NCBI RefSeq assembly: GCF_029889805.1
Contig: NZ_JARANT010000011.1
Location: 1 to 44,245 of the forward strand
DNA: 44,245 bases
Reading direction: 5' to 3'
Source: Halorubrum sp. Boch-26
Lineage (GTDB): Archaea > Halobacteriota > Halobacteria > Halobacteriales > Haloferacaceae
Part shown: positions 9,188-22,122 of the stretch, in pieces
Numbering within the stretch: the stretch's first letter is position 1
Layout of the letters: each line of letters opens with the position of its first letter
Translations under genes and position numbers: made by a program
The notes under the pieces: model-generated
The model's database searches: none
What the model was told of the DNA's origin: nothing
The model's input: the letters and a program-made list of their open reading frames with translations, nothing else

Positions 9188-9463
9188 TCACTGCTCGCCG
9201 GAATCGCTCTCGGACTCCGCGGCGACCGCCTCGTCCCCGGGGCGGAGCTGTCGCGGGAGCAGCCCCGAGACCAGCCCGCGGAGGATCCGCCCCGGATCGA
9301 GGAAGTACTGCGGGAGCGCGACCATCGCGACGGCGACGACGAGCAGTCCGGCGCCGAGCGCGAGTTCGCCGGCGAACAGCCGGATGACGGCGTAGTTCGC
9401 GAGCGGCAGCGCGAACACGAGCGACGCCGCCAGCCCGATCATGTCCATCAGCCCGAGATTCAT
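9188..9463 (-). CDS. Small haloarchaeal membrane protein, unknown function
   Basis: 91-aa protein with two hydrophobic helices (about residues 5-27 and 31-50), a short loop with YFLDPGRILRGLVSGLLP and an acidic Glu/Ser tail. It resembles the many two-helix haloarchaeal DUF proteins (possibly DUF7533), but I do not recognise it with certainty. It is convergent with the M24 gene (19-nt gap) and divergent from riboflavin synthase. The Met at 9463 is the only sensible start before the first helix. Confidence 0.7.
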   Translation of the reverse strand: MNLGLMDMIGLAASLVFALPLANYAVIRLFAGELALGAGLLVVAVAMVALPQYFLDPGRILRGLVSGLLPRQLRPGDEAVAAESESDSGEQ

Positions 9464-9625
9464 TGGACCCTGATTTGCGCCCGGCGTTCAAAAGCTGCGC
9501 GGCGGCGGTCGCTCGGGCACCGTCGACGGCGGCAGACGCTCCGCCGCGTCGAACCGCCGGCCGTCCCGGGCCGCGAGCCGCCCCGAACACCGAACCGATA
9601 TGTGTCGCGCGCGCTCAGATCGGGT
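9464..9625. other. Divergent intergenic region
   Basis: These 162 nt separate the small membrane gene from riboflavin synthase. The right end carries the TATA-like CCGATATGTG (9593-9602), 24-33 nt before the ATG at 9626. The remainder is GC-rich without a recognisable repeat or RNA gene. Confidence 0.5.
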
Positions 9626-10234
9626 ATGTTCACCGGTATCGTCGAGGACACGGGCGCGGTCCGCGAACGGACCGAGACCGCGGACGGGCTCCGGCTTCGG
9701 ATCGGCGTCGAGGGGTTCGACGACCTCCACCACGGCCAGTCGATAAGCGTCAGCGGCGTCTGTCTGACCGTCGAGGAGTACGAGACCGACGGCGACGCGG
9801 GCGGCTGGTTCGAGGTGTTCCTCGCGAGCGAGACGGTCGCGAAGACGTACCTCGGCGACGTGAAGGAGGGGGACCCGGTCAACGTCGAGCGCGCGATGCC
9901 CGCCGACGGGCGGTTCGACGGCCACGTCGTGCAGGGTCACGTCGACACCGTCGCCGAGGTGACGGGGATCGAGCGCGTCGGCGAGGACTGGCGCTTCGCG
10001 TTCGCGATCCCGGAGGGGCACGCCGACTACCTCGTCGACAAGGGGTCGGTAACGCTCGACGGCATCTCGCTGACGGTCGCCGAGAAGCGCGAGGCCGAGT
10101 TCGACGTGGCGGTCATCCCGACGACGTACGACCTCACCACGCTCTCGGAGAAGTCGGTCGGCGACCCGGTCCACCTGGAGGTCGACGTGATCGCGAAGTA
10201 CGTCGAGAACATGCTCGACGGCTACGCGGGATAG
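9626..10234 (+). CDS. ribE: Riboflavin synthase, alpha-subunit type
   Basis: 202-aa enzyme dismutating two 6,7-dimethyl-8-ribityllumazines into riboflavin and the pyrimidinedione. It shows the duplicated lumazine-binding fold: the first domain starts MFTGIVEDTGAV with SISVSGVCLTV, and the second starts FDGHVVQGHVDTVAEV with SVTLDGISLTV. This is the bacterial-type trimeric enzyme, which haloarchaea use instead of the archaeal RibC type of methanogens. Length is normal. The start at MFTG is invariant in the family; an ATG eight codons upstream (MSRALRSG) is rejected because it would overlap the TATA-like element. No other riboflavin gene is adjacent. Confidence 0.95.
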   Translation: MFTGIVEDTGAVRERTETADGLRLRIGVEGFDDLHHGQSISVSGVCLTVEEYETDGDAGGWFEVFLASETVAKTYLGDVKEGDPVNVERAMPADGRFDGHVVQGHVDTVAEVTGIERVGEDWRFAFAIPEGHADYLVDKGSVTLDGISLTVAEKREAEFDVAVIPTTYDLTTLSEKSVGDPVHLEVDVIAKYVENMLDGYAG

Positions 10235-10270
10235 GCGGACGTCGAGAGAAGCAGAGAAGCTCCGGACGCG

Positions 10271-10969
10271 TTAGGCGTCCTTCGCTCCCTGTACCGTCTC
10301 GCGGACGGCGTCGACGCCCTCGTCGTGGAGCAGGTCGCCGACGACGATCACGTCGCTGTGGGCGGCCATCTCGTTGGCGGACTCGTAGTCGCCGATCCCG
10401 CCGCCGTAAAAGAGGGTGGCGTCGTCGAGCGCATCGTGGGCGGCCGCGACTTTCTCCGTGTCGCCGAAGGTACCCGAGTACTCGACGTAGATTATCTCCT
10501 GGCCGAACATGCGCTCGGCGACCTTCGCGTACGCGCCCACGTCGTCGGCCGCGAGGTCGCAGTTCGCGTCCGTCAGCTCCGCGACCGCGGCGTCGGGGTT
10601 GAGGACGATGTACGCCTCGGTGTGCGTCCGGTCCCAGTCGAGGTCGTCGATGCGGACCCACTCCTTGTGCGCGCCCGTGATCCAGAACGGACCGCCGGCG
10701 TTGAACACCGTCGGGATCAGGTAGCCGTCGAGCGCCGGCGAGTCGACGACGACGCCCGGGTTCGACGGCTCCTGGTACAGCGGGACGTCGTACTCGGCCG
10801 CGGCGTCGACGACGCGCGTCATCTTCTCCGCGGTGATATCGAGGGTCCCGCCGATCTCGATCGCGTCGGTGCCGGTGCGGCAGACGTCCTCGAAGGTCTC
10901 GCCGTCCCGCAGTTCCTTGTCGGGATCGACCTTCAGCACGTGGTCCCAGTCGTCCCACGGGTTGCTCAT
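10271..10969 (-). CDS. Geranylgeranylglyceryl phosphate synthase
   Basis: 232-aa TIM-barrel prenyltransferase forming the first ether bond of archaeal lipids from sn-glycerol-1-phosphate and GGPP. Family features include [13 protein letters not shown] near residue 34, [45 protein letters not shown] and the phosphate-binding end [11 protein letters not shown] followed by [13 protein letters not shown]. Length and motif order fit the haloarchaeal group I enzymes. The Met at 10969 ([11 protein letters not shown]) is chosen over upstream extensions since a T-rich promoter-like element with an inverted repeat lies 22-36 nt before it. With carS in the same window, two of the core ether-lipid steps are encoded nearby. 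Confidence 0.93.
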
Positions 10970-10990
10970 CGGGAACGACTCCACCGGGCG

Positions 10991-11005
10991 GCACCAAAAA
11001 GGTGC
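10991..11005 (-). promoter_or_regulatory. Inverted repeat over the probable TATA box of GGGP synthase
   Basis: GCACC-AAAAA-GGTGC is a perfect 5-bp palindrome with an A5/T5 centre, 22-36 nt upstream of the ATG at 10969, where the TATA/BRE should be. On the coding strand the centre reads TTTTT. It could be the promoter itself or an operator that blocks it. Confidence 0.45.
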
Positions 11006-11031
11006 GGAACCTGCCTCGTCGCTCACCCCGC

Positions 11032-11081
11032 AACTGGACAATCCACAACCGGACAATCCGTAACCGGACAATCCGTAACCG
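11032..11081. repeat. 15-bp tandem repeat, three copies
   Basis: AACCGGACAATCCGT occurs exactly at 11047-11061 and 11062-11076, preceded by a variant copy at 11032-11046 (three differences) and followed by the first 5 nt of a fourth. It lies between the end of cetZ and the promoter of GGGP synthase, on no gene. There are no spacers, so it is not a CRISPR array. Confidence 0.85.
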
Positions 11082-11094
11082 TTCGACCTCCCGT

Positions 11095-12174
11095 TCAGAG
11101 CAGATCGTCGAGCTCGTCGTTCTGGAACGCCATCGCGGGGTCGACCCGTTCTTCCGGCTCGTCGCGGACCGCCTGCCGAGCCCGTTCGAGGAACGCCTCG
11201 ATCCGGCGGGAGCGCTCGACGCCGGCGAGCAGCACGAGCGCCGCGATCCGGTCGGAGTCGAGCGGGAAGTCGCCGCCGCGCACCTGCATCGAGCCGGTCT
11301 CCTCTTGGAGCCACTTACGTGCCTTCTCCGCGCCCTTCCGGGAGATGCGGTCGGGGTCGCCGGCGACGGCGACGAGAGCGGCGTCGGCGTCGGTCGCGTT
11401 CGGGAGCGACATCCCCGTCATCACCGCGCTCCGGACGGTGCTCATCACGGTCGTGACGTTCTCCTCCGGGCCCTCGGCGGCCGGCGCCGAGGCGAACCCG
11501 ATCGCCGCCATCCCGCCGGCCCGCAGCGTGTTGATCACCTCGCTCGTGTCGACGACCGACTCGCCGACGCCCTCGACCGATTCGCCGGCGGCGAGCAGGA
11601 GGCCGACGCGCCGCGCCATCGACTCGTTGATCGCGGCGAAGCCCCCCTCGACCGATTCCCCGGAAGAGCGCCACGCGTCGTTGTCGAGAAGGACCGTCGC
11701 GTCCGCCTCCCGTACCAGCGTCTTCAGCGACCGGCCCGCGTTCACCTGGTACATCGCCCCCTCGTCGCGGCCGGGGAGAATTCCGATCGCGTAGACGGGA
11801 ACGTCGTACACCCGGCTCAGCTCGCGGACGAGCACCGGCGCGCCGCCCGACCCGGTGCCGCCGCCGAGCCCGGCGACCACGAACAGCGCCTCGGCCTCCG
11901 CCGTCACCTTTGACGCGATCGCGCCTAATACCTCGACTGCGTCCTCGTTCATCACTTCGGCGCCGAGCTCGTTGTCGCCGCCGACGCCGTGACCGTTCAC
12001 CCGCGACTGACCGACGAGGACCGTCTCAAGCGGGAGCGGATCGAGGTCCGCCGCGGCCGTGTTGACCGCGAGCGCGTCGAGCACCGCGCCGTAGCCGGCA
12101 TCGGCGTCGAACTGAGCGAGGGCGGTCGTGAGCTTCCCGCCCGCCTGTCCGACGCCGAGGAGGACTGCCTTCAT
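11095..12174 (-). CDS. cetZ: CetZ, tubulin/FtsZ-like cytoskeletal GTPase
   Basis: 359-aa GTPase of the archaeal CetZ family, whose members control cell shape and motility-related morphology rather than division. Visible features are the N-terminal GVGQAGGKL nucleotide loop, [11 protein letters not shown], the tubulin signature [12 protein letters not shown] (residues 102-113, T4 loop), the segment [24 protein letters not shown] and the synergy-loop [16 protein letters not shown]. The protein ends in an acidic tail ([10 protein letters not shown]). It lacks the typical FtsZ C-terminal peptide. It is divergent from the pilus-like operon, sharing a 75-nt intergenic region. Which CetZ paralogue it is cannot be decided here. 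Confidence 0.9.
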
Positions 12175-12195
12175 GTTCGGATGATAACCGATCCG

Positions 12196-12206
12196 GCGTA
12201 TTACGC
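12196..12206 (-). promoter_or_regulatory. Palindrome at the cetZ promoter position
   Basis: GCGTATTACGC is an 11-nt palindrome (5-bp arms around one T), 22-32 nt upstream of the cetZ ATG, just where a TATA element is expected. It lies in the 75-nt region shared with the divergent pilus-like operon. Confidence 0.45.
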
Positions 12207-12218
12207 TTTCCCCCGCGG

Positions 12219-12245
12219 TTTAAGTACCAAACCGAGGCCAGTCGC
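12219..12245 (+). promoter_or_regulatory. Extended TATA promoter of the pilus-like locus, copy 1
   Basis: The element begins TTTAAGTACCAAACCG and continues to 12245, four nt before the ATG at 12250. It matches the element at 17249-17275 at 23 of 27 positions and the one at 13444-13459 over the first 16 nt. The distance from the first T to the start codon is 31 nt (30 in the other two), so spacing is conserved as well as sequence. Confidence 0.7.
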
Positions 12246-12249
12246 GGGC

Positions 12250-12873
12250 ATGTCGAACGCTACCGACGAGAGGAGTCGGACATCGGACCGCGGAGAACGG
12301 CCGCCCGGCGCCGAAGCCGGCAGACCGAGCGACGCACAGGCCGAAGACCACCTCGAGGAGCGTCTCCGCGCGGTCGAGCGTGCTCTGACCGGGTCCGACA
12401 CGGCCGTCGCGGACCTCGGTGACGACGCGGCCGCCGCGGCGGAACGCGAGGCCCTAGCGTCGCGCGTGGCCGAGCTCGAATCGCGTGTCGAAGAGCTGGA
12501 GGCCGCAACGCAGGCTATCAGAGGGTACGTGGGATCGATCCGAGCCGTCAATAGAGAGGTAGAACGGCGAGCCGATCTCGCGCTGGCGAGAGCGAACCGC
12601 GGTGAGGAGGGCGCCCATGACACGGGATCCGCAAACGAGACCGATCTCAGCGACGCGGCCCAAGGCGACGGTGAGCCCGACGACATGGCCGGCGACGACG
12701 GTCACGCCACTGCGGTGCCGAGCGAGGCGGCCCTCGACGCTGCCGTCCCAGCGGACGACGCCGGTCAGACCGACGCGCGAGCATCGGCCGATTGGGACGC
12801 CGCCGACGGGGGAAACGACGCAGACGGATCGTGGCGAGACGAGGCACTGGAGCGGCTCCGTGAGTCCCTGTAA
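12250..12873 (+). CDS. Coiled-coil protein, DUF7310-like
   Basis: 207-aa acidic, soluble protein. Residues ~33-105 form a likely coiled coil (DHLEERLRAVERALT, then AEREALASRVAELESRVEELEAATQAIRGYVG, and INREVERRADLALARAN). A disordered Ala/Asp/Gly-rich tail follows and ends with a short helix (WRDEALERLRESL). I assign it to the haloarchaeal DUF7310 coiled-coil group from memory. As the first gene of the pilus-like locus it may be a cytoplasmic adaptor of the ATPase; that is inference. The ATG at 12250 is fixed by the promoter element just upstream. A longer frame upstream lies antisense to cetZ. Confidence 0.8.
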   Translation: MSNATDERSRTSDRGERPPGAEAGRPSDAQAEDHLEERLRAVERALTGSDTAVADLGDDAAAAAEREALASRVAELESRVEELEAATQAIRGYVGSIRAVNREVERRADLALARANRGEEGAHDTGSANETDLSDAAQGDGEPDDMAGDDGHATAVPSEAALDAAVPADDAGQTDARASADWDAADGGNDADGSWRDEALERLRESL

Positions 12874-12942
12874 GCCGGACCGTACGGCGGGATCGAGAAG
12901 CGCGGCGAGGATCGGGGTCGCGACGGAGGAGGCGATCGGGCC

Positions 12943-13440
12943 GTGATCCGCGTCGTCCTCACCGTCCTCGTCGCCGTCGCCCTCCTCGCGGCCGCGGCGC
13001 CGGCGCTGGAAGACGCCCGAGCGGCCACGACCGTCGAACGGCTCGACACCGAGGCGGACCGCGTCGAGCGAGCCGTCGGCGGCCTCGTCTCGGGCTCCGT
13101 GAGCGTCGCGGACCCCGCGCTCGCCGCGCGGACGACGGTGACCGTCCGGGTCCCGAGCGGGTTCGGGGCGGCACCGGTCGAGCGCGTCGTGCTCGTGGAA
13201 ACCGAAGGCGTCGACGGAGCGGAGACCGCAGAGACGAACGCCGCCGAGGCGGACGTCGCGATCCGATACCGGATCGACGGCGGCCCCGATCGGTCGGTGC
13301 CGATCGTACCCGGAGGCGTGGGCGCAGCCGTCGCTGTCGACGGCGGCGCGATCGCGCTCCGACCGGGCGGTGAGAGCCGGCTGGTACTCCGGCTCGTCGA
13401 CGACGGCGGACCGACCGTCCGGATCGCCAGAGTGGGGTGA
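12943..13440 (+). CDS. N-terminally anchored protein, DUF7311-like
   Basis: 165-aa protein starting with a hydrophobic helix (VVLTVLVAVALLAAAAPALEDA, residues ~4-25) followed by an amphipathic helix rich in Ala/Glu/Arg (TTVERLDTEADRVERAVGGL) and a beta-rich domain with VRVPSGFGAAPVERVVLV and GGESRLVLRLVDDGGPTVRI. The layout, a helical spike and then a beta domain, recalls pseudopilins and pilin-like subunits, although no prepilin peptidase site is obvious. The GTG start at 12943 directly precedes the helix. It lies 69 nt after the coiled-coil gene and 33 nt before the ATPase gene. Family name from memory; role inferred from context. Confidence 0.78.
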   Translation: MIRVVLTVLVAVALLAAAAPALEDARAATTVERLDTEADRVERAVGGLVSGSVSVADPALAARTTVTVRVPSGFGAAPVERVVLVETEGVDGAETAETNAAEADVAIRYRIDGGPDRSVPIVPGGVGAAVAVDGGAIALRPGGESRLVLRLVDDGGPTVRIARVG

Positions 13441-13443
13441 TCG

Positions 13444-13459
13444 TTTATATACGAAGCCG
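13444..13459 (+). promoter_or_regulatory. Extended TATA promoter of the pilus-like locus, copy 2
   Basis: TTTATATACGAAGCCG starts 30 nt before the GTG of the ATPase gene. It differs from copy 3 (17249) at only two of 16 positions. An internal promoter here would let the ATPase and platform genes be expressed independently of the first two genes. Confidence 0.65.
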
Positions 13460-13473
13460 GGAGCACGCCCGCC

Positions 13474-15399
13474 GTGAACCTCGATCTCCCCTCGCTGCCA
13501 CGGATCGGCGGCGGCGATCCCCCGCTGCGATCGCTGCCGTGGACGGACGACGAGCGCGACTGTCGGTGCGAGCCGACGTTCAGAGAGCCGGTCGGCACGG
13601 GCGTCGGCGATCGTGTCGTGCTGGCGGTCGACGCCGATGACTGCTCGGGCCGCGGCGACCTCGCCGAGAGCCCGGGCTGCCTGGCGACCGTCGTCGAGGC
13701 GCTCGCCGAGCGCGACGCCGACGTGATCAGGACCCGTCACCGAGGACGAGAGCGGGCGTACACCGGGCGCGCCGCCGCGTGCTTGGTCGCAGCGGGTCGG
13801 TTCCGCGAACGCGTCGGCTTCCACGAGACGCGACTCGCCGACCGCGTGCTTCGCGATCCGGTCGGCGCCGCCCGGGAGGCCGCCGGACGCGAGGGACCGC
13901 CGAGCCGAATCGCGGCAGAGACGGGGCTGTCGACGGTCGTCGAGGGAGCCGACGAGGTCGGGGACGTGGTGCGGGCGCACACTGGGCCTCGGATCGCGGC
14001 CGCACGGGTCGCGACCGCGCCGCCGCCGAAGGCCGCGCTCGTCGATCGTTGGGAGCTCGATACCGGGGCGATCGTCCGGTTGTACGAAGGGTCGGGGGCG
14101 CTCCGGACGTACCACCTCACGCCGCCGGTTCGGGATCTCGACGACGGGGCAACCGAGCGGCTCGACGGCGCCAAGCGGCGGCTACTCGACGATCCGGCCG
14201 GTGGAGAGCGGGCTCCCGGTCGCGCGGCCCGAGCGGCCGCCGAGGACGACGACCCCGTCTCGACGCTGGCCGAGGTACTCCGTCGGTACACGCGCGGGTA
14301 CGGCGCGTTCGAGCACGTGTTCGCGGACGACCGGGTCAGCGACGCGACGCTGTCGGCGCCGGTGACCGAGAACCCGCTGCGCGTCGTCGTCGACGGCGAG
14401 CGTTGTCGGACGAACGTCAGGCTCCCCCCCGAGGGAGCCGCCACGCTCGCGTCTAGACTTCGCCGGACCAGCGGGCGGGGGTTCTCACGAGCGAGCCCCA
14501 CGCTCGACGCGACGCTGGAGACGGCCGCCGGCCGCGTCCGCGTCGCCGCGACGACCGACCCCGCCAGCGACGGGCTCTCGTTCGCCTTCCGCCGCGGCGA
14601 CCCCGACGCGTGGACCCTCGCGCGGCTCGTTGACGTCGGGACGATCACCCCGACGGCCGCCGGGCTCCTCTCCGTCGCCGTCGAGCGCGGCGTGACCGGT
14701 CTCGTGGCCGGCGGACGCGGTGCGGGGAAGACGACCGCGCTCGGCGCGCTCCTGTGGGAGCTCCCCGCGGAGACGCGGTCAATACTGATAGAGGACACCC
14801 CCGAACTCCCGGCGAGCGCACTGGCGGCCGCCGGACGAGACGCGCAGCGCCTCCGCGTCGGCGACGGGGCGGAACCGTCGCCGAGCGACGCGGTCCGGAC
14901 CGCGCTCCGACTCGGCGGCGGTGCGATCGTCGTCGGCGAGGTCCGCGGCGAGGAGGCGCAGGCGCTCTACGAGGCGATGCGCGTCGGCGCGACCGGAGAG
15001 ACGGTGCTCGGAACGATCCACGGCGAGGATCCGGCCGCCGTCAGAGAGCGAGTTGTCTCCGATCTCGGCGTGTCGTCGTCGTCGTTCGCCGCGACCGACC
15101 TGATCGTCTTGCTCGACGACCACCGTATCGACGTGATCGCCGAGGTGGTCGGTCACAACGACGGTGCCGCGTTCGATCCGCTGTTCGAACGCACGGCCGG
15201 AGGGCTGACGCCGACCGGACGGATCGACCGCGGCGAGAGTCGGCTCATCGAGCGGCTCGCGGGAACCGACGGATCGTACGCCGCAGCGAGGACGGCCGTC
15301 GAGGAACGCGGCGAGCGGATCGGCGAGGCAGTCGCCGCCGGACGAACGGAGCCGGATCGATACGCCGAGTTCGTCGGCGTGGACGGTGAGACCGGATGA
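13474..15399 (+). CDS. Secretion/pilus-assembly ATPase (TadA/GspE/PilB superfamily)
   Basis: 641-aa hexameric ATPase expected to power assembly of a pilus-like filament from the cytoplasmic face. The C-terminal half holds Walker A GGRGAGKTTALG (residues ~413-424), the Asp-containing ILIEDTPELP, the Walker B region GGAIVVGEVRGEEAQALYEAMRVG (~482-505) and the His box GTIHGE (~512). The N-terminal half contains RYTRGYGAFEHVFAD and the conserved-looking DATLSAPVTENPLRVVVDG region before the ATPase core. It is the archaeal Tad/FlaI-like type with a lineage-specific first 200 residues. The GTG at 13474 is set by the promoter at 13444. Its stop overlaps the start of the platform gene (ATGA). Confidence 0.9.
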   Translation: MNLDLPSLPRIGGGDPPLRSLPWTDDERDCRCEPTFREPVGTGVGDRVVLAVDADDCSGRGDLAESPGCLATVVEALAERDADVIRTRHRGRERAYTGRAAACLVAAGRFRERVGFHETRLADRVLRDPVGAAREAAGREGPPSRIAAETGLSTVVEGADEVGDVVRAHTGPRIAAARVATAPPPKAALVDRWELDTGAIVRLYEGSGALRTYHLTPPVRDLDDGATERLDGAKRRLLDDPAGGERAPGRAARAAAEDDDPVSTLAEVLRRYTRGYGAFEHVFADDRVSDATLSAPVTENPLRVVVDGERCRTNVRLPPEGAATLASRLRRTSGRGFSRASPTLDATLETAAGRVRVAATTDPASDGLSFAFRRGDPDAWTLARLVDVGTITPTAAGLLSVAVERGVTGLVAGGRGAGKTTALGALLWELPAETRSILIEDTPELPASALAAAGRDAQRLRVGDGAEPSPSDAVRTALRLGGGAIVVGEVRGEEAQALYEAMRVGATGETVLGTIHGEDPAAVRERVVSDLGVSSSSFAATDLIVLLDDHRIDVIAEVVGHNDGAAFDPLFERTAGGLTPTGRIDRGESRLIERLAGTDGSYAAARTAVEERGERIGEAVAAGRTEPDRYAEFVGVDGETG

Positions 15400-17222
15400 C
15401 GAAGCCGATCGACGACCCAACCGACAGCTCAACGCGTCGGCGGACAGACGCCGACACGAACGGGTCGCCCGAGCTCCGTCGCGCGATCGCGTTCCTCGGG
15501 TGGGACGCATCGGCCGAACGTGTCGTCGAGCTCGGCTATCGGGCTGGCGTCGGCGTCGGCCTCCTCTGTGCCGTCGCGCTTTCCCTCGCTATCGGCCCCG
15601 TTCCGGGAGGGCTCGCCGGGCTCGCCGGGGGACTGACAGCGACCCACGCGGTCCATCGGACACCGGTGTGGCTCGCCACGCTCCGACGGACGCGGGCGCT
15701 CGGAGCCGCGCCCGGACTCGTCGGCCGGCTCGTGTTGCGGATGCGTCTAGACCCGTCGGCGGAGCGCGCCGTCCGGTTCGCCGCCCGCACCGGAGACGGA
15801 CCGCTCGCCGACGGACTGGCGCGTCACGAGCGGGGGAGCGCGGACGGACCGACGAGCGGGCTCCGCGCGTTCGCCCGCGAGTGGCGGCCGTGGTTCCCCG
15901 CGATCGACCGCGCCGCCGCGCTGGTGCGGACGGCGGCGTCGGCGCCGGCGGAGCGGCGGGGACGCTGTCTCGACCGCGCGCTCGACGCGACGATCGCCGG
16001 AACGACCGATCGCCTCGCTGCGTTCGTCGGTGAGGTCCGCGGCCCCGTCTCGGCGCTGTACGCCTTCGGAGTGCTCCTCCCGCTGGCCCTGATAGCCCTG
16101 CTTCCCGCGGCGGCGGCGTCCGGCGTTGCGATCGGGACCGGCGTCGTCGCGGGGCTCTACCTCGGCGTGCTTCCCGCCGGACTGTTCGCCGCCTCAGCGT
16201 GGCTCCTCTCGCGCAGACCGGTCGCGTTCGCGCCGCCGTCGATCGACGGCGACCACCCGGACGTGCCGGACCGAGCGCGGCACGCGGTCGCGGCCGGCGT
16301 GATCTCCGGGATCGTCGCGGCGCTCCTGGCCCCACGGCTGGTCGCCGGATGGGCCGCACCGGTGGCCGGGATCGGCGTTGGAGCGGGGACAGCGCTTCTC
16401 GTCGGCGTTCGGAGGCGGCGGGCGGCGCTCTCGGGGATTCGCTCCGTCGAGCGCGGGCTTCCGGACGCCATGACCGTCATCGGCGGAGACGTGGCCGAAG
16501 GGGTCGCCGTCGAGACGGCGATCGCGAACGCGGGCAAGCGACTCGACGGCGCCACCGGCGAGCTGTTCGAGCGTGCCGGGCGCCGGAGCGAGACCCTCCG
16601 GGTTGGGGTTCGAGAGGCGTTTCTCGGCCGGGGCGGGCCCGCCGTTCCGGTTCCGTCGCCGCGGGTTCGGGGGGCGGTCGCCCTGCTCGCCGTCGCCGCG
16701 CGAGAGGGCCGTCCGGCGGGCGACGTGCTCCTCGAACTCGCCGACCAGCTGGAGGAGCTCCGGGCGCTCGAAACCGACGCACGGCGGCAACTCGCGACCG
16801 TGACGGGCACGCTGACGAACACCGCTGCGGTGTTCGCGCCGCTCGTCGGCGGTGCGACGGTCGCGCTCGCGACGGGGATCGACGCGGTCGACGCCGGGGG
16901 ACTGGGAGCCGGGGCGACCGCCGGTGCGGACGCGCTTGGGGTCGGTGGGACCAGTGGTACTACCGGCGTCGAGAGCGCGAGTGCGGCCGAGGCGACCGCG
17001 GGTTCCGCGGGCGACCCCGGAGCAGGAGCGCTCTCGGTTCCGGTGCTCGGCCGGATCGTCGGCGTCTACGTGCTGATTCTCGCAGCGCTACTCACTGCGC
17101 TGGCGACCGGTCTGGAGCGCGGCTTCGACCGGACGCTGGTGGCTTACCGCATCGGAATCGCGTTGCCGACCGCGACGGCGACGTACCTCGTCGCGTTCGC
17201 CGGTGCGGGGGCGCTGCTGTAG
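15396..17222 (+). CDS. Pilus platform membrane protein (TadC/GspF-like)
   Basis: 608-aa integral membrane protein, the partner of the preceding ATPase in Tad and type IV pilus machines. Two similar halves can be seen. Each has a cytoplasmic helical bundle followed by transmembrane pairs: hydrophobic segments near residues 48-80, 220-270, 300-340, 468-490 and 550-608. Cytoplasmic parts include VIGGDVAEGVAVETAIANAGKRLDG and AAREGRPAGDVLLELADQLEEL, which resemble the T2SF domain. The Gly/Ala-rich stretch at about 495-545 is low complexity. The start overlaps the ATPase stop by 4 nt, so the two are translationally coupled. It ends 56 nt before the next gene, which has its own promoter. Confidence 0.88.
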   Translation: MTKPIDDPTDSSTRRRTDADTNGSPELRRAIAFLGWDASAERVVELGYRAGVGVGLLCAVALSLAIGPVPGGLAGLAGGLTATHAVHRTPVWLATLRRTRALGAAPGLVGRLVLRMRLDPSAERAVRFAARTGDGPLADGLARHERGSADGPTSGLRAFAREWRPWFPAIDRAAALVRTAASAPAERRGRCLDRALDATIAGTTDRLAAFVGEVRGPVSALYAFGVLLPLALIALLPAAAASGVAIGTGVVAGLYLGVLPAGLFAASAWLLSRRPVAFAPPSIDGDHPDVPDRARHAVAAGVISGIVAALLAPRLVAGWAAPVAGIGVGAGTALLVGVRRRRAALSGIRSVERGLPDAMTVIGGDVAEGVAVETAIANAGKRLDGATGELFERAGRRSETLRVGVREAFLGRGGPAVPVPSPRVRGAVALLAVAAREGRPAGDVLLELADQLEELRALETDARRQLATVTGTLTNTAAVFAPLVGGATVALATGIDAVDAGGLGAGATAGADALGVGGTSGTTGVESASAAEATAGSAGDPGAGALSVPVLGRIVGVYVLILAALLTALATGLERGFDRTLVAYRIGIALPTATATYLVAFAGAGALL

Positions 17223-17248
17223 CGACCGGCTCGGGTCTGCGGCCGACA

Positions 17249-17275
17249 TTTAAATACCAAGCCGCGGCCAGCCGC
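17249..17275 (+). promoter_or_regulatory. Extended TATA promoter of the pilus-like locus, copy 3
   Basis: The element starts TTTAAATACCAAGCCG and ends three nt before the ATG at 17279; the first T is 30 nt upstream of the start codon. It is nearly identical to the element before the first gene of the locus, 5 kb upstream. It should drive the four genes from 17279 to 22122. Confidence 0.7.
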
Positions 17276-17278
17276 TCC

Positions 17279-17767
17279 ATGCTCGAGACGCACCTCGACG
17301 CGACGTACGCGTGGCTCGGCCTCGCTGTGGTGAGCGTTGCGACGGCCGGCGTCACCGCAACGCTCCCGGCGTCGCCACCACCAGACGCGGCCGGCGCCGC
17401 ACACACGATCGAGACGGTCGCCGGCGGAGAGTATCCCGCGACGGCGGAACACGGACTCGCGGCGGAGCGGGTCCGCCTCACGCCCCGGTCCGTCTCCCTC
17501 GACGGAAACGGCGGAAGCGCTCGGGCGCCGCTTTACGCCTCACGGATAACGCCGGTCCCGCCGAGCGATCGAGGCGGGGCCGACGATAACCGGCTCCGGC
17601 AAGTGCTCGACGGCGTCCCGCCGGACGCCGCGTTCGACGATCCCGATACGCTGTCGACGGCGGCGGAGCGCGCCCGGGGCGCCGACCACGGCTGGCGGCC
17701 GGCGCCGGAGCGGCTCACCGTGAGACGAGTCCACTACGGAGGAATACATGTCACGCTCGTCGGATGA
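17279..17767 (+). CDS. DUF7283-like anchored protein of the pilus-like locus
   Basis: 162-aa protein with one N-terminal hydrophobic helix (YAWLGLAVVSVATAGVTATL, residues ~10-29) after the short MLETHLDA. The rest is an extracellular-type domain with TVAGGEYPATAEHGLAAERVRL and a C-terminal strand VRRVHYGGIHVTLV. It resembles the haloarchaeal DUF7283 group (recognised from memory), usually found beside Tad-like genes. The start is fixed by the promoter element; the frame is open far upstream only as a shadow of the platform gene. It overlaps the next gene by 20 nt. Confidence 0.8.
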   Translation: MLETHLDATYAWLGLAVVSVATAGVTATLPASPPPDAAGAAHTIETVAGGEYPATAEHGLAAERVRLTPRSVSLDGNGGSARAPLYASRITPVPPSDRGGADDNRLRQVLDGVPPDAAFDDPDTLSTAAERARGADHGWRPAPERLTVRRVHYGGIHVTLVG

Positions 17768-18188
17768 GCCGTCCGACGCCCGGAATGCGGCCGTGGACCG
17801 TGCGGCGGTCGAACCGCTCGCCGCGCTCGTCGCAGTGCTGGCCGTCGGCGCGGCGCTGGGATTGTACACCGTCGCACTCGACGACGCGACGGTCGATCGA
17901 GAGCGCCCGAGCGCCGAGACGGCCCTCGACCGAGCCGAGCGGACGGCGACGGTCGGCGGTGTCGTGGAGCCGAAGCGGCTCAGCGACATTGAGACGTTTC
18001 GGTATCCGACGACAGTGACGGTGACGGCCGGCGGGAGGACGTGGCGGATCGATTCGGGTGACGACGCGCCTGGACCGGCGGCGGTCGGCGGCGACGGCAG
18101 GGCCGCGGTAACCGAGCGACCGGTGACCGTGCGAGTCGGTCCGGGCCGGAACGTGCGCGGGACGTTTCGCGTGGTGGTCCGTCGGTGA
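17748..18188 (+). CDS. DUF7285-like pilin-type protein
   Basis: 146-aa protein. After a polar, charged N-terminus (about 20 residues, SRSSDEPSDARNAAVDRAAV) there is EPLAALVAVLAVGAALGLYTVAL, a helix with a Glu near its start, reminiscent of the +5 Glu of mature type IV pilins. The following region is beta-rich (TVTVTAGGRTWRI, PVTVRVGPGRNVRGTFRVVV). I place it in the DUF7285 group from memory. The ATG at 17748 lies within the end of the preceding gene, 20 nt overlap, suggesting translational coupling. Whether it is processed by a prepilin peptidase is not decided by the sequence. Confidence 0.78.
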   Translation: MSRSSDEPSDARNAAVDRAAVEPLAALVAVLAVGAALGLYTVALDDATVDRERPSAETALDRAERTATVGGVVEPKRLSDIETFRYPTTVTVTAGGRTWRIDSGDDAPGPAAVGGDGRAAVTERPVTVRVGPGRNVRGTFRVVVRR

Positions 18189-18883
18189 CGAGCACCGTGC
18201 TCGACGTGACGGTCTTGCTTCTGTGCGTGTCGGCGAGCATCGTCGCGCTCGGCGGCGTCGGCGGCGAGGTCGGCATGAGGGGGCCGACCGCTGACGAGGC
18301 GGCCGATCGGCTGGTGACCGAGACGGTAACCGTGCGATACCGAGCGCCCGAAGCGGCGAACGGTAGCCGGACGATACACGCGACGCGCGCCGAGCTGCTC
18401 GCGCTGCTTGTCGCGCGTCCCGGAAAGACGGATGGCGGACGTAGTGCCACCAGAGATCGCGACGCCACGGATGTAAACGGGTTCGAAGCGCGAGCGGCGG
18501 CGGCGGTCGCGACGGGACTCGACGAACGGACGCGGATCGATGCGACGGTCCCGGCGCCCGAAAGCCGGGAGCGCGGAACGCAGAGGCCGACATCCGACCG
18601 ACGCGTCCCGAATCACCGCGGCGGCCGGCGAGCCGCCGGTCCGATAGCCGTGACGGGGACGCCGAACGCGCCGCGAGTCCCTCGACGAGTCGGGCCCCAC
18701 GCTGACGGCGACCCGCGGGGAGACGAAGGGCGGCGGTCGGGGGCGACCCGGAACGAGAGGACAGTCGCCGTTGGCGTCGAACCGCCGCGGAACGTCGACG
18801 TCGCGACAGCGGTCATCACGCACCCGGCGCCGAGCGCGACCGGGAGGGAGGCCTCCGTCCGCATCGTCGTGAGGAGGTGGTGA
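18185..18883 (+). CDS. DUF7284-like anchored protein
   Basis: 232-aa protein starting at a GTG that overlaps the previous stop (GTGA). The first 22 residues form a hydrophobic helix (VLDVTVLLLCVSASIVALGGVGG), followed by DEAADRLVTETVTVRYRAPE and a long, probably flexible Arg/Gly/Pro-rich centre (about residues 140-205). The end is beta-like (VATAVITHPAPSATGREASVRIVVRR) and echoes the end of the preceding protein (FRVVVRR), so these subunits may share a C-terminal strand motif. Family assignment to DUF7284 is from memory and from gene order. Function is unknown; it probably forms part of the cell-surface structure. Confidence 0.75.
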   Translation: MTSTVLDVTVLLLCVSASIVALGGVGGEVGMRGPTADEAADRLVTETVTVRYRAPEAANGSRTIHATRAELLALLVARPGKTDGGRSATRDRDATDVNGFEARAAAAVATGLDERTRIDATVPAPESRERGTQRPTSDRRVPNHRGGRRAAGPIAVTGTPNAPRVPRRVGPHADGDPRGDEGRRSGATRNERTVAVGVEPPRNVDVATAVITHPAPSATGREASVRIVVRRW

Positions 18884-18885
18884 GC

Positions 18886-21800
18886 GTGTCGAAACGCAAC
18901 GAGACGTTCGACGGCGAGAGGGTCGGGCGGCGGTTCACAGTCGACGAGCGTGCGCGCGTCCCCTTCGCGCTGATCGGCGTGCTGCTCCTCGTGACGAGCA
19001 CGGCGTACGCCGCGGGGATCGCGGACCAAGGGCTCGTCGGCGAGGACCGGAGCGTCGAGCGGGCCGTCGAGCGCGTCGACGCGGACGCCACTGCCGCGCT
19101 GCGGGCCGCAGCGCGAGAGGCGGCGCACGACGCGGCGCGCGAGCCGGTGACGCGGGCGCCCGAAGGCGGTGCCGCAGCCGAGGCGGTGCGCGAGGAATCA
19201 CCCTTCGCGGACGCGTTCCGGATCCGGCTCGGGGTCGCCGGCGCGGATGCACTTTCCGCCGTCGACACCGAGATCGGGCCGGTGACCGCGACGGTGTCGT
19301 TACCGGCAGTCGATGATCGAGAGGACCTCTCGGCGGCCCGCGACCGTGTTCGCGTCGAGCCGGCGGCGAACGGGACGGCGACGAGCGTGACTTTCGAGGA
19401 GGTCACGACGACCGCGGTCCGGAACGGACGGACGGTCGTGAACCGCACCGAGAACAGGACCGTCGTGGTGGCCGTGCCGACGCTCGCCGCTCACGAACGG
19501 ACGGAGCGGTTCGAGGAACGGCTCAACAGGGGACCGGTCGAGGGGCCGGGACTCGGTCGACAGCTCACCGCGAGCCTCTACCCGATGACTTGGGCGCGCG
19601 GTTACGCGCAGTACGCCGGGGCGCCAGTCGAGAACGTCCTCGCGAATCGACACGCGGAGCTGTCGACGAATGCTGGGCTCGTCCGGACTCAGCGGGCCGT
19701 CTTCGGGACGAGCGATCCGGACGCCCGCGGCGGGGTGGCACGGGCGACGGCGCGGACCGGCGTGAGCGATCTCCTCGCACCGACCGGCGTCCACGAAGCT
19801 TCGTGGACCGACGCGGTGCTCGGGGCGCCGACGCCGACCAGTTACGGGGAGGCCGCGCCGCGACCGAACGCCGGGACAGATCCGAACAGAGAGCCGATCG
19901 AGGACGCGGCGTTCGAGCCGAAACGAGACCGGACCGACGAAGAAACGCCGGTCCCGATCGGGCATGCAGCGGACGTCGGAGCGACCCGCATCCACGACGA
20001 TCTCGACGAAGTGATCGAGGGCGCGTACCGAGTCGAGGCCGACGTGCAGACCGCGACGGCGCAGGTCGCGGACGGCGGGCGGCTTTCGCCGCCGGCACCG
20101 GGCGGCGGATGGGACCGCGTCAGCGTGTCGCGGTCGGAGCGCCTGACGGGCATCTCCGGGAGTGACGTGCCGAGAGGGATTCCCGCGGGAACTGTCGAAC
20201 CCGGTGAGCCGGTCTCGTTCGGTGACGCGAGCCGCGAGGTGACAGTCGAGCGTACCGCGACGACGACGTGGGAGCGAGAGATCGTGGAACGGGGCCCGAA
20301 CGGGACGGTCGTTGACCGCACGGTCCACCGGAGGACCACGTACGACGAAGCGACCGACCGCTACCGTGTTCGTGTCTCGGTGACGGGCCGACACTCACCG
20401 ACCGACGGCGCGCCCGCCCGACCCGCCGCGACGTTCGGGGCGGGGAGCTCAGATGGCGGCCCGGACCTGCGGGAGACGCCGGCGGCCGCGCGCTCGGCGC
20501 TCGGCATCGACACGGCGGCTGGCGTGGACCGACTCGCCCGCGACGCCGTGCAGAGCGGTGACATCGACGACTCGACGGTCGTCCACGGATCTCGGTCGGA
20601 CACCGGGCGGGACCGCGTGGCGGCCGATGTCGCCGCGCTCGCGAGCACGGTCCGGGAGTTCGAGACGGACGCGTCGATGGAGGCGGCGGCGGTCGGCGAG
20701 GCGGAGCCGTACGCCGACCTCGCGGACGCGGTCCGGGACCGCCGCGCGGCGCTCGTCGACGCACCGACGACGTACGACGGCGCGACCGACCGGGCGCGGG
20801 TCGCCGCACGCGCGGCGTACGTCGACGCCGTCGTCGCGGAGCTGGAAGCCGCCGCGGCGGACCGCGAACGCGCGACCGACGGGTTCCTCGATCGGGTGAA
20901 CGGGGCTTTCGGCGGCCCCTCTGTCGGCGAGGCGATCGCCGCCCGCGAGGCCGCCCGAAACCCGGGCACGTACACGGTCGCCGGCGACGGTCCCGGGGGA
21001 GCGGTGACGTTCTCACCGAGAGGGTCACCGGGGTACCTGCCGCGGACGACGATCGATGGCGAACGGACTGACGGCGCGAGCGAAATCTCGACGCGGCCGC
21101 TCGTGGTCCGGAACGTGAACTACGCCACCGTCCCGTACGGCGAACTGTCGAGCGGGATCGTAGACCGGATCCTCGGCGCCGGCGACACGATCCGAGTCGG
21201 CACCGCCGGGCGCGCGCTCCTGCTCGCTGACGAGGCGCTGGCCGCGGGCGACGACCCGGAGCTCCGGACCGAGCGAGACGCGCTCGCGGAGCGGGTGGAA
21301 GGATCGCTGCGCGCCGTCGATCGTGAGCTCGAAGGCGTACTTCGGGATCGGACCTCGCTGACGCCCGAGGAGCGGCGTGAAGCGATCGACGCGGCCGCCG
21401 AGTCTTACGGTTCGGCGGGGGAACGAGCAGCCGCGGTCGGCGGCGGTGAGTACGCCGAGCGCGTCGCCGTCGAGGCCGCTGCCGCAGGAGCCCTTTCGAC
21501 CACGGGGAAGGAATCGCTGGCCGCGCATCTCCGCGTCGCGACCCGGCAGGCGGCCGGCCGAGACGACGCCCGTGTCCCGACGCGGTTCGTCGAGCCTCCG
21601 ACGAAGGGCGCGCGGCTCCTGCTCAGAGACCGCATGGAGAGCGCGATAGAGAGCGAGGCGGCGCGGGCGGGTGAGGCCGCGACTGGGGAGTTGAGCGAGA
21701 GGGCAGCCGAAGAGCTCGGTGAGGAGTGGTCGCTGAAGCCCGTTCGGAGCGTCGGTGCGGGACTGCCGGTCGCACCGGTGCCCGGCTACTGGGTGACGAC

Positions 21801-22122
21801 GGTGAACGCCTGGCGCGTGCAGGTCCGCGGGGAGTATCCCCGATTCGCGCTGCGGGCCGACGTTGGCACGCCGGGCGAACCGTTCGAGTACGTCCGACAG
21901 GAGGGCGATGTGACGCTCGATCTCGACGGGAAAACCGTGCGGCTCGGAGCCACGGAACCGGTCCGGTTCGAGACGGGAACCGTCGTCGCGGTCGCGGTGC
22001 CAGCCGGTCCGCCCGGCGTCGGCGACGTCGACGGCACCCGCGACGAGGCCTCCGCCGGGTGGCCGTGTCCGGGTCCGACGGAAGCGCCGAGTGGAGGAGA
22101 CGGGGAGTGTACGGCCGCGTAG
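18886..22122 (+). CDS. Giant membrane-anchored surface protein, DUF7286-like
   Basis: 1078-aa protein, the largest of the locus. A charged N-terminus is followed by one helix (VPFALIGVLLLVTSTAYAAGIA, residues ~26-47) and then over 1000 residues of mostly Ala/Arg/Glu-rich helical sequence, with beta segments such as VRVEPAANGTATSVTFEEVTTT and, at the end, PRFALRADVGTPGEPFEYVRQEGDVTLDLDGK. It contains segments that look like extracytoplasmic coiled or spectrin-like helices (for example YVDAVVAELEAAAADRERATD). I chose the GTG at 18886 because GGAGGT ends 8 nt before it; GTG at 18877 and 18880 overlap the previous gene. DUF7286 assignment is from memory. It could be the stalk, tip or scaffold of the machine. 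Confidence 0.78.
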   Translation: MSKRNETFDGERVGRRFTVDERARVPFALIGVLLLVTSTAYAAGIADQGLVGEDRSVERAVERVDADATAALRAAAREAAHDAAREPVTRAPEGGAAAEAVREESPFADAFRIRLGVAGADALSAVDTEIGPVTATVSLPAVDDREDLSAARDRVRVEPAANGTATSVTFEEVTTTAVRNGRTVVNRTENRTVVVAVPTLAAHERTERFEERLNRGPVEGPGLGRQLTASLYPMTWARGYAQYAGAPVENVLANRHAELSTNAGLVRTQRAVFGTSDPDARGGVARATARTGVSDLLAPTGVHEASWTDAVLGAPTPTSYGEAAPRPNAGTDPNREPIEDAAFEPKRDRTDEETPVPIGHAADVGATRIHDDLDEVIEGAYRVEADVQTATAQVADGGRLSPPAPGGGWDRVSVSRSERLTGISGSDVPRGIPAGTVEPGEPVSFGDASREVTVERTATTTWEREIVERGPNGTVVDRTVHRRTTYDEATDRYRVRVSVTGRHSPTDGAPARPAATFGAGSSDGGPDLRETPAAARSALGIDTAAGVDRLARDAVQSGDIDDSTVVHGSRSDTGRDRVAADVAALASTVREFETDASMEAAAVGEAEPYADLADAVRDRRAALVDAPTTYDGATDRARVAARAAYVDAVVAELEAAAADRERATDGFLDRVNGAFGGPSVGEAIAAREAARNPGTYTVAGDGPGGAVTFSPRGSPGYLPRTTIDGERTDGASEISTRPLVVRNVNYATVPYGELSSGIVDRILGAGDTIRVGTAGRALLLADEALAAGDDPELRTERDALAERVEGSLRAVDRELEGVLRDRTSLTPEERREAIDAAAESYGSAGERAAAVGGGEYAERVAVEAAAAGALSTTGKESLAAHLRVATRQAAGRDDARVPTRFVEPPTKGARLLLRDRMESAIESEAARAGEAATGELSERAAEELGEEWSLKPVRSVGAGLPVAPVPGYWVTTVNAWRVQVRGEYPRFALRADVGTPGEPFEYVRQEGDVTLDLDGKTVRLGATEPVRFETGTVVAVAVPAGPPGVGDVDGTRDEASAGWPCPGPTEAPSGGDGECTAA

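Follow-up and report, generated by a model that had tools for sequence, protein, structure and literature searches.

Eight plus-strand genes of Halorubrum sp. Boch-26, within positions 12,219 to 22,122 of a 44,245-nucleotide (nt) stretch (contig NZ_JARANT010000011.1; hereafter, the window), form a type IV pilus-like locus whose extended promoter element also precedes a stand-alone pilin gene, a HerA-family ATPase gene and other genes elsewhere in the genome. In order, they encode DUF7310, DUF7311, the assembly ATPase PilB2, the probable membrane platform PilC2, DUF7283, DUF7285, DUF7284 and DUF7286. The analysis establishes the gene content of this PilB2 locus, its co-conservation, the shared promoter element and the phyletic match with the stand-alone pilin. 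Judging from sequence, we put the chance that the locus specifies a pilus for DNA uptake (capture and import of external DNA) at about even. The wider proposal, that it supplies the pilus for natural competence in haloarchaea, through a machine in which one promoter element turns on the pilus, its major pilin, HerA, a TctA-type channel, a secreted nuclease, DNA-processing enzymes and many copies of a pseudoknot RNA, falls somewhat short of that. The locus had been called poorly described in the original prediction; it is in fact the haloarchaeal pil-2, pilB2-C2 or subclade 4F system (PMC4292770, PMC4858521, PMC9856176) and is not new as a locus. The shared promoter motif and its link to the stand-alone pilin are new, as far as our searches reached.

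Three transcription-unit starts of the locus share an extended promoter

At three transcription-unit starts, a TATA box lies about 30 nt 5' of the start codon, as expected of leaderless haloarchaeal mRNAs. The DUF7310, pilB2 and DUF7283 promoters have an extended motif in common (TATA + GAAACCGCGGCCA), and the consensus of the conserved extension after the TATA box is GTTTAaATaCGAaacCGCGGCCAccC. P1 (12,219 to 12,241, plus strand), about 30 nt before DUF7310, comprises the TATA box and a GAA-CCG-GGCCA extension, with the sequence TTTAAGTACCAAACCGAGGCCAG. P2 (13,442 to 13,476, plus strand) precedes pilB2, and P3 (17,246 to 17,281, plus strand) precedes DUF7283, with the core TTTAAATACCAAGCCGCGGCCAG at 17,249 to 17,271. 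Within the 2.76-Mb genome, TTTAAGTACCAAACCGAGGCCAG and TTTAAATACCAAGCCGCGGCCAG are the only two sites at ≤3 mismatches.

Whole-genome scans used R1, a sequence-only model of the motif. The three locus promoters ranked first (E 4e-6 to 1.7e-4; 1.7e-4 for P1, 2.8e-5 for P2 and 4.1e-6 for P3), and the matches after them included HerA (6e-4), a pseudoknot-RNA copy (0.002), a NucS-like gene (0.012), the DUF7382 pilin (0.043) and TctA (0.42). Beside the further T2SSE loci that this genome has, R1 found no match.

The motif recurs in other loci: it is present at 80/80 DUF7283 starts, 78/79 pilB2 starts and at least 47 of 57 DUF7310 starts. A matrix built from the DUF7283 promoters of other loci scored high at the starts of PilB2 and DUF7310 in Halorubrum loci kept out of the training, with no high score at the starts of CetZ2, DUF7311, PilC2, DUF7285, DUF7284, DUF7286, DUF5791, the epimerase or the DHH gene. 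Over 1.64 Mb of locus sequence, the remaining above-threshold matches look largely like missed DUF7310 or pilB2 starts. CetZ2, encoded next to the locus, was considered as a regulon member and rejected, as its start has no motif (median score -9.8). The locus had been predicted to own a dedicated promoter family; the shared motif is real at the three starts, but "dedicated" proved too narrow and was abandoned, because the NucS-like gene and other genes elsewhere carry the motif, even in locus-free genomes.

A stand-alone DUF7382 pilin and a HerA-family ATPase accompany the locus

Elsewhere in the window genome, the motif precedes the gene for a HerA-family ATPase (a 382-amino-acid (aa) HerA-like protein) and, divergently, that for the DUF7382 pilin, a 158-aa protein with the class III N-terminus SRAIEGLPVRLVIALVVGVASLSVMM. 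The pilin is present in 30 of 39 genomes, exactly those with DUF7286, and absent from the other 9; its start lies 32-33 nt after the motif in 28 of the 29 readable genomes. On a panel of 292 Halobacteria genomes, DUF7382 and DUF7286 agree in 282 (219 with both, 63 with neither and 5 + 5 discordant, weak DUF7382 matches counted; Fisher p about 1e-51, with no correction for relatedness), or in 277/292 if only strict DUF7382 matches are taken. We consider the DUF7382 pilin most likely to be the bulk filament subunit of the PilB2 pilus, as its promoter and distribution suggest. Two genomes, G109 and G184 (L291, L303, L283, L294, L307), have strong DUF7382 matches and the pseudoknot RNA but no DUF7286, reflecting either a lost locus or an assembly gap.

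The HerA ATPase was detected in 27 of the 30 locus genomes and in 0 of the 9 others, and it adjoins the DUF7382 pilin in 26/30 flanks. Its co-occurrence with the locus also bears on a repair- or DNA-damage-linked cell-contact pilus like the Ups/Ced system of Sulfolobales, which would exchange DNA from cell to cell rather than take up free DNA. Ups pili act with the HerA/VirB4-like ATPases CedB and CedD (PMC11868833), and the subclade of the PilB2 ATPase is seen as transferred from crenarchaea (Makarova 2016, PMC4858521). However, no CedA-like gene was identified, and Haloferax mating is reportedly unaffected by the prepilin peptidase (cited in PMC7749143). We regard such a pilus as the least probable of the explanations weighed here, and quite unlikely.

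The eight genes are conserved as a unit

The fetched loci number 83 (the window, 32 named relatives and 50 stretches from genomes across Halobacteria). All eight families occur in 77 of them, a co-conservation far beyond chance and in line with the suggestion that they form a unit; the lack of co-conservation named beforehand as refuting it was not observed. Within these 77 complete loci, the neighbouring cetZ2 is kept in 67 and DUF5791 in 74. Three of the six incomplete loci stop at a contig end (L065, L083, L116), and the other three (L049, L109, L113) are without genes inside the fetched stretch. In L113 (G242), DUF7286 occurs without pilB2 or pilC2 within about 12.5 kb upstream, and in L109 (G172) it occurs without DUF7310 or DUF7311 over the same distance. 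DUF7286 was detected in 224 of the 292 Halobacteria genomes. It is broken over several frames in Halobaculum litoreum (L069:15455-18700), possibly as a pseudogene or through a sequencing error. In two Nanohaloarchaea stretches, L070 (SG9, 9353-13855) and L071 (9383-15326), there are genes for proteins like PilB2 and PilC2 (E 8e-122 and 4e-60), with no convincing matches to the other six locus families.

Genes sharing the promoter suggest a role in DNA uptake

R1 matches were drawn from 14 locus-bearing and 16 other genomes, and the family counts given here cover only the matches chosen for fetching. The motif was found before genes for PLD-family proteins bearing hydrophobic segments at the N-terminus (11 genomes; one protein also had a weak lamin-tail match), TctA (7 genomes, the window's own included; a regulatory-sequence link only), Pilin_N pilins (6), Cas4-like nucleases (5), MinD-like ATPases (3) and DUF7857 proteins (3), with three TctA and some PLD assignments made by visible sequence similarity, not by a separate search. 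The window's own genome gave no such match for a MinD-like or PLD nuclease gene. A NucS-like (zinc-ribbon) gene carries the motif in 25 of 30 tested genomes, locus-free ones included; it was rejected as a system-specific part, being present in 37/39 genomes. Such a concentration on few families seems unlikely for a random promoter class. A second stand-alone pilin, of the Pilin_N type, also has the motif in both locus-bearing and locus-free genomes (L300, L304, L306, L319, L338, L348). In three genomes of one family (G004, G034, G028; L302, L369, L370), the motif precedes a short, possibly coding open reading frame ending in RMDNAYARADHARA or similar.

We favour a DNA-uptake pilus because this motif-linked set is of the same kind as the transformation genes of Methanococcus. 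Natural transformation of Methanococcus maripaludis depends on its type IV-like pilus, on a MinD/ParA-like and an OB-fold protein (the latter of the MMJJ_13020 type), on a membrane thermonuclease and on a TctA-like membrane protein; this last is also essential in Methanoculleus thermophilus, and TctA has been proposed as the DNA transporter because archaea are without ComEC (PMC10133366). Haloferax takes up DNA without a known machine (PMC6759562, PMC3929857); uptake is measurable in Haloferax mediterranei devoid of exopolysaccharide (PMC6759562), and growth of Haloferax volcanii on DNA needs a thermonuclease that sits at the surface and carries a lamin-tail domain (PMC3929857).

A mechanism can be outlined from these components, in which the assembly order, filament composition, co-expression and DNA uptake are what we infer. 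The locus would encode the assembly engine and the minor or accessory subunits of a PilB2/PilC2 type IV pilus, with PilB2 driving and PilC2 providing the platform for the insertion of DUF7285, DUF7284 and the large DUF7286, the last perhaps at the tip or base. The bulk of the filament would be the DUF7382 pilin, whose gene stands alone elsewhere and which the PibD-type peptidase of the genome would cleave. The shared extended promoter would switch on the locus together with the DUF7382 pilin, the HerA ATPase, the TctA-family membrane protein and the DNA-processing enzymes. The pilus might then bind DNA outside the cell, the secreted PLD-family nuclease might trim the bound DNA, TctA and/or the HerA ATPase might carry it across the membrane, and the Cas4-like and NucS-like enzymes might process what is imported.

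The main and serious rival is an adhesion or biofilm pilus, in which the PilB2/PilC2 filament serves surface attachment and the promoter marks co-expressed surface and stress genes. Adhesion is mediated by other PilB systems of haloarchaea, attached cells of Halobacterium salinarum have raised pilB2 transcripts relative to flaI (PMC4292770), and a cetZ2 deletion (deltacetZ2) alters cell shape early in biofilms (PMC10606840). Yet cetZ2 itself is without the motif, and adhesion leaves the promoter sharing with HerA, Cas4-like, NucS-like and PLD-nuclease genes unexplained; we consider it possible, though clearly less probable than DNA uptake.

Several observations tell against a DNA-uptake pilus. 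The relative up-regulation of pilB1 and pilB2 in attached Halobacterium cells fits adhesion too (PMC4292770). The agreement in presence and absence ignores phylogeny, and HerA is absent from three locus genomes, with a promoter score >14 in only 14/26. Locus-free genomes retain the motif at the NucS-like, TctA, PLD and Cas4-like promoters, and the promoter class is therefore wider than the pilus. The motif sites were found by a locus-trained model, with only part of the matches identified, and both structure models described below (DUF7283 and DUF7286) are without clear relatives. The likeness to the M. maripaludis set covers its pilus, its MinD/ParA-like and TctA-like proteins and its nuclease.

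DNA uptake by archaea is largely unexplained, with genes identified only in methanogens. If the promoter link is true, it would supply an orphan haloarchaeal pilus with a function, with the pilin that it lacks and with a list of partner genes, and the recurrence of TctA-like proteins and pili in archaeal transformation would be explained. Haloferax is a genetically well-tractable member of the group. In the literature searched, we found no functional test of the PilB2 pilus, and a search on the six DUF names of the locus returned no paper using them.

Pilin-like N-termini and structure models of the small and large subunits

N-terminal motifs were scored with our own regular expressions, which are looser than FlaFind. 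DUF7285 has the N-terminus R[GA]|x-E-P-LAALVAV in 78/81 loci, and DUF7286 has R[AG]RVPFALIGVLLLV (across loci R[AG][RW][VI]PFALIGVLLLV) in 80/82; both resemble a class III signal peptide with a helix after it. DUF7284 shows a very short leader and then R[AG]|xSTVLD in 25/81 loci, and is leaderless (M-TSTVLD, with the start codon at the mature-like position) in 48/81, the window's family included. The prepilin leader appears to be gone in that family, whereas other families have kept it (window 18,185 to 18,220; L063, L078 and L079 versus L096-L121). A class III motif was found for DUF7283 in 1/81 loci only, and a motif of class III type for DUF7311 in 24/78. The original prediction took the small proteins with N-terminal helices to be pilin-like subunits, which these motifs bear out for DUF7285 and DUF7284 (as well as for DUF7286) but not for DUF7283, with DUF7311 unclear.

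Structure prediction, the approach suggested for the DUF proteins, showed no pilin fold in the two modelled here, DUF7283 and DUF7286. The alignments behind the models took in Halorubrum relatives for DUF7286, and Halorubrum and Halobaculum for DUF7283. The AlphaFold model of DUF7283 is confident (mean predicted local distance difference test (pLDDT) score 84) and forms a small alpha/beta domain with no Foldseek match and no clear structural relative (best Z 3.1). DUF7286 gave a poor model (mean pLDDT 52.6), ordered at about residues 58-200 and 361-660, with no Foldseek match at E ≤ 0.001; its best VIA rows (Z 5.7 to the holo-translocon model 5mg3 and 5.0 to Wzc) fall in the range of common arrangements. 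"Pilin-like" is accordingly used for DUF7285, DUF7284 and DUF7286 as a description of their N-terminal sequences, not of a fold.

Another reading dispenses with a long filament: the locus would build an apparatus for protein secretion or surface display, and DUF7286 would be the effector or adhesin that it exports or displays. For a pilin, DUF7286 is very large; its gene closes the unit and is strongly conserved, and DUF7283 and DUF7311 are without clear pilin motifs. Against this stand the pilin-like N-terminus of DUF7286 in 80/82 loci and the stand-alone pilin, whose co-occurrence and shared promoter argue for a filament. Such an apparatus seems to us improbable, well behind adhesion and slightly ahead of an Ups/Ced-like pilus.

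Gene organization of the locus and its surroundings

The window genome belongs to Halorubrum, with H. yunnanense and Halorubrum sp. SD626R as the closest relatives found. Pfam searches and reading frames confirmed the eight co-directional genes that had been claimed; they are packed closely, with several overlapping frames. DUF7310 (12,250 to 12,873, plus strand; Pfam PF23991, 6.8e-29) is a cytoplasmic coiled-coil protein, and DUF7311 (12,943 to 13,440, plus strand; PF23993, 1.2e-35) is small, with an N-terminal hydrophobic helix and no clear class III motif.

As had been proposed, the next two genes identify a type IV pilus-like machine. PilB2 (13,474 to 15,399, plus strand; Pfam T2SSE, 2.7e-18) is a TadA/VirB11-type assembly ATPase whose relatives among solved ATPases are 2oap, CpaF and FlaI (phmmer), and whose N-terminal extension has five cysteines (Cys) within about the first 105 residues. 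PilC2 (15,396 to 17,222, plus strand) is most probably a TadC-like membrane platform; its Pfam T2SSF match (E 0.0054; 17.1 bits, curated cut-off 25.2) is below the cut-off, and its identity is taken from its position after pilB2 and from conservation, which both favour it strongly. The gene overlaps the pilB2 reading frame, directly 3' of it, and the pair is conserved together.

The four remaining genes are all on the plus strand. DUF7283 (17,279 to 17,767; PF23954, 1.9e-51) is membrane-anchored, with a predicted extracytoplasmic alpha/beta domain in its AlphaFold model. DUF7285 (17,748 to 18,188; PF23956, 7.4e-27) and DUF7284 (18,185 to 18,883; PF23955, 1.4e-10) are pilin-like by their N-terminal motifs, and DUF7286 (18,877 to 22,122; PF23957, 1082 bits; about 1080 aa) is anchored by its conserved pilin-like N-terminal helix.

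The divergent neighbour (11,095 to 12,174, minus strand; Pfam CetZ_C, 6e-63) encodes an archaeal tubulin-family GTPase. Its best solved-structure match is 4b45 (E 9e-153), with 4b46 behind; we take these to be CetZ2 and CetZ1 of H. volcanii, and the gene was assigned as cetZ2 because 4b45 outranks 4b46. Genes for DUF5791, an epimerase and a DHH-family protein follow downstream. The major pilin and the prepilin peptidase are missing from the window, as had been noted, which is not unusual: a Peptidase_A24 (PibD-type prepilin peptidase) gene lies on contig C104, several type IV pilins are also encoded elsewhere in the genome, and the best candidate subunit is the stand-alone DUF7382 pilin.

The motif also precedes a probable multicopy pseudoknot RNA

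Many motif matches precede no gene but RTG-NNN-TGA and then an element of 80-130 nt, in which two helices interleave as a covarying H-type pseudoknot that ends near CCTGTTCGC. Several copies per genome occur in many haloarchaea (L252:133, L254, L255, L256, L260, L261, L263, L273, L280, L283, L303 and others), one of them in the window genome at G000 C39:2909-3010 (L147:2909-3010). Of 26 copies read from the loci, 21 have the second helix with its full six pairs, against a mean of 6.4 and a maximum of 13 with permuted partners (2000 trials), a result that is strong but not final since the pairing positions were searched over a window. A tRNA or a known RNA family was rejected as an explanation of the non-coding matches, with no tRNA and no Rfam match found. 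The putative pseudoknot RNA seems to be previously undescribed.

Comparison with known systems

The bacterial Tad pilus differs from the eight-gene locus in its secretin, TadZ, Flp pilin and TadV set, for which no Pfam match was found among the eight genes. In the available part of the account of Losensky 2015 (PMC4292770), pil-2 of H. salinarum R1 comprises seven co-transcribed genes, restricted to haloarchaea, with pilB2 (arCOG01818), pilC2 and small genes, three of which have FlaFind-positive prepilin signals. The plan of pilB2, pilC2 and then small genes is the same here, with gene-by-gene orthology inferred and unaligned. Unlike the locus here, pilC2 of H. salinarum has an in-frame stop, and that part of the account mentions neither a shared promoter nor a pilin encoded in trans.

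Subclade 4F of Makarova 2016 (PMC4858521) was described with an ATPase with N-terminal cysteines, a haloarchaea-unique coiled-coil partner (arCOG07564) and an FtsZ-like neighbour, with a predicted stand-alone PilA-family major pilin (arCOG02981). The assembly ATPase with its Cys-bearing N-terminal extension, the coiled-coil DUF7310, which fits arCOG07564, and the FtsZ-like CetZ neighbour are all found here. The subclade 4F pilin was linked through families, whereas DUF7382 is linked here through the promoter and presence/absence. In the available text of Brown & Duggin 2023 (PMC9856176), a pilB2/C2 regulon adjoins cetZ2, with an epimerase (arCOG03095), arCOG01566 and arCOG04674. This neighbourhood matches the locus here, arCOG04674 apparently being DUF5791; that text proposes CetZ as a scaffold and puts forward neither a promoter motif nor a pilin encoded in trans nor a link to DNA uptake.

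The Ups/Ced system of Sulfolobales likewise pairs a pilus with a HerA/VirB4-family ATPase (PMC11868833), and the likeness of the HerA protein here to CedB and CedD is at family level. For M. maripaludis, whose pilus is of clade 1, unlike PilB2, and whose proteins were matched by family description and not aligned, the transformation genes of Fonseca 2023 (PMC10133366), i.e., pilus, MinD, TctA and nuclease, are of the kinds that also share the promoter here, the MinD-like and PLD-nuclease genes in three and eleven genomes.

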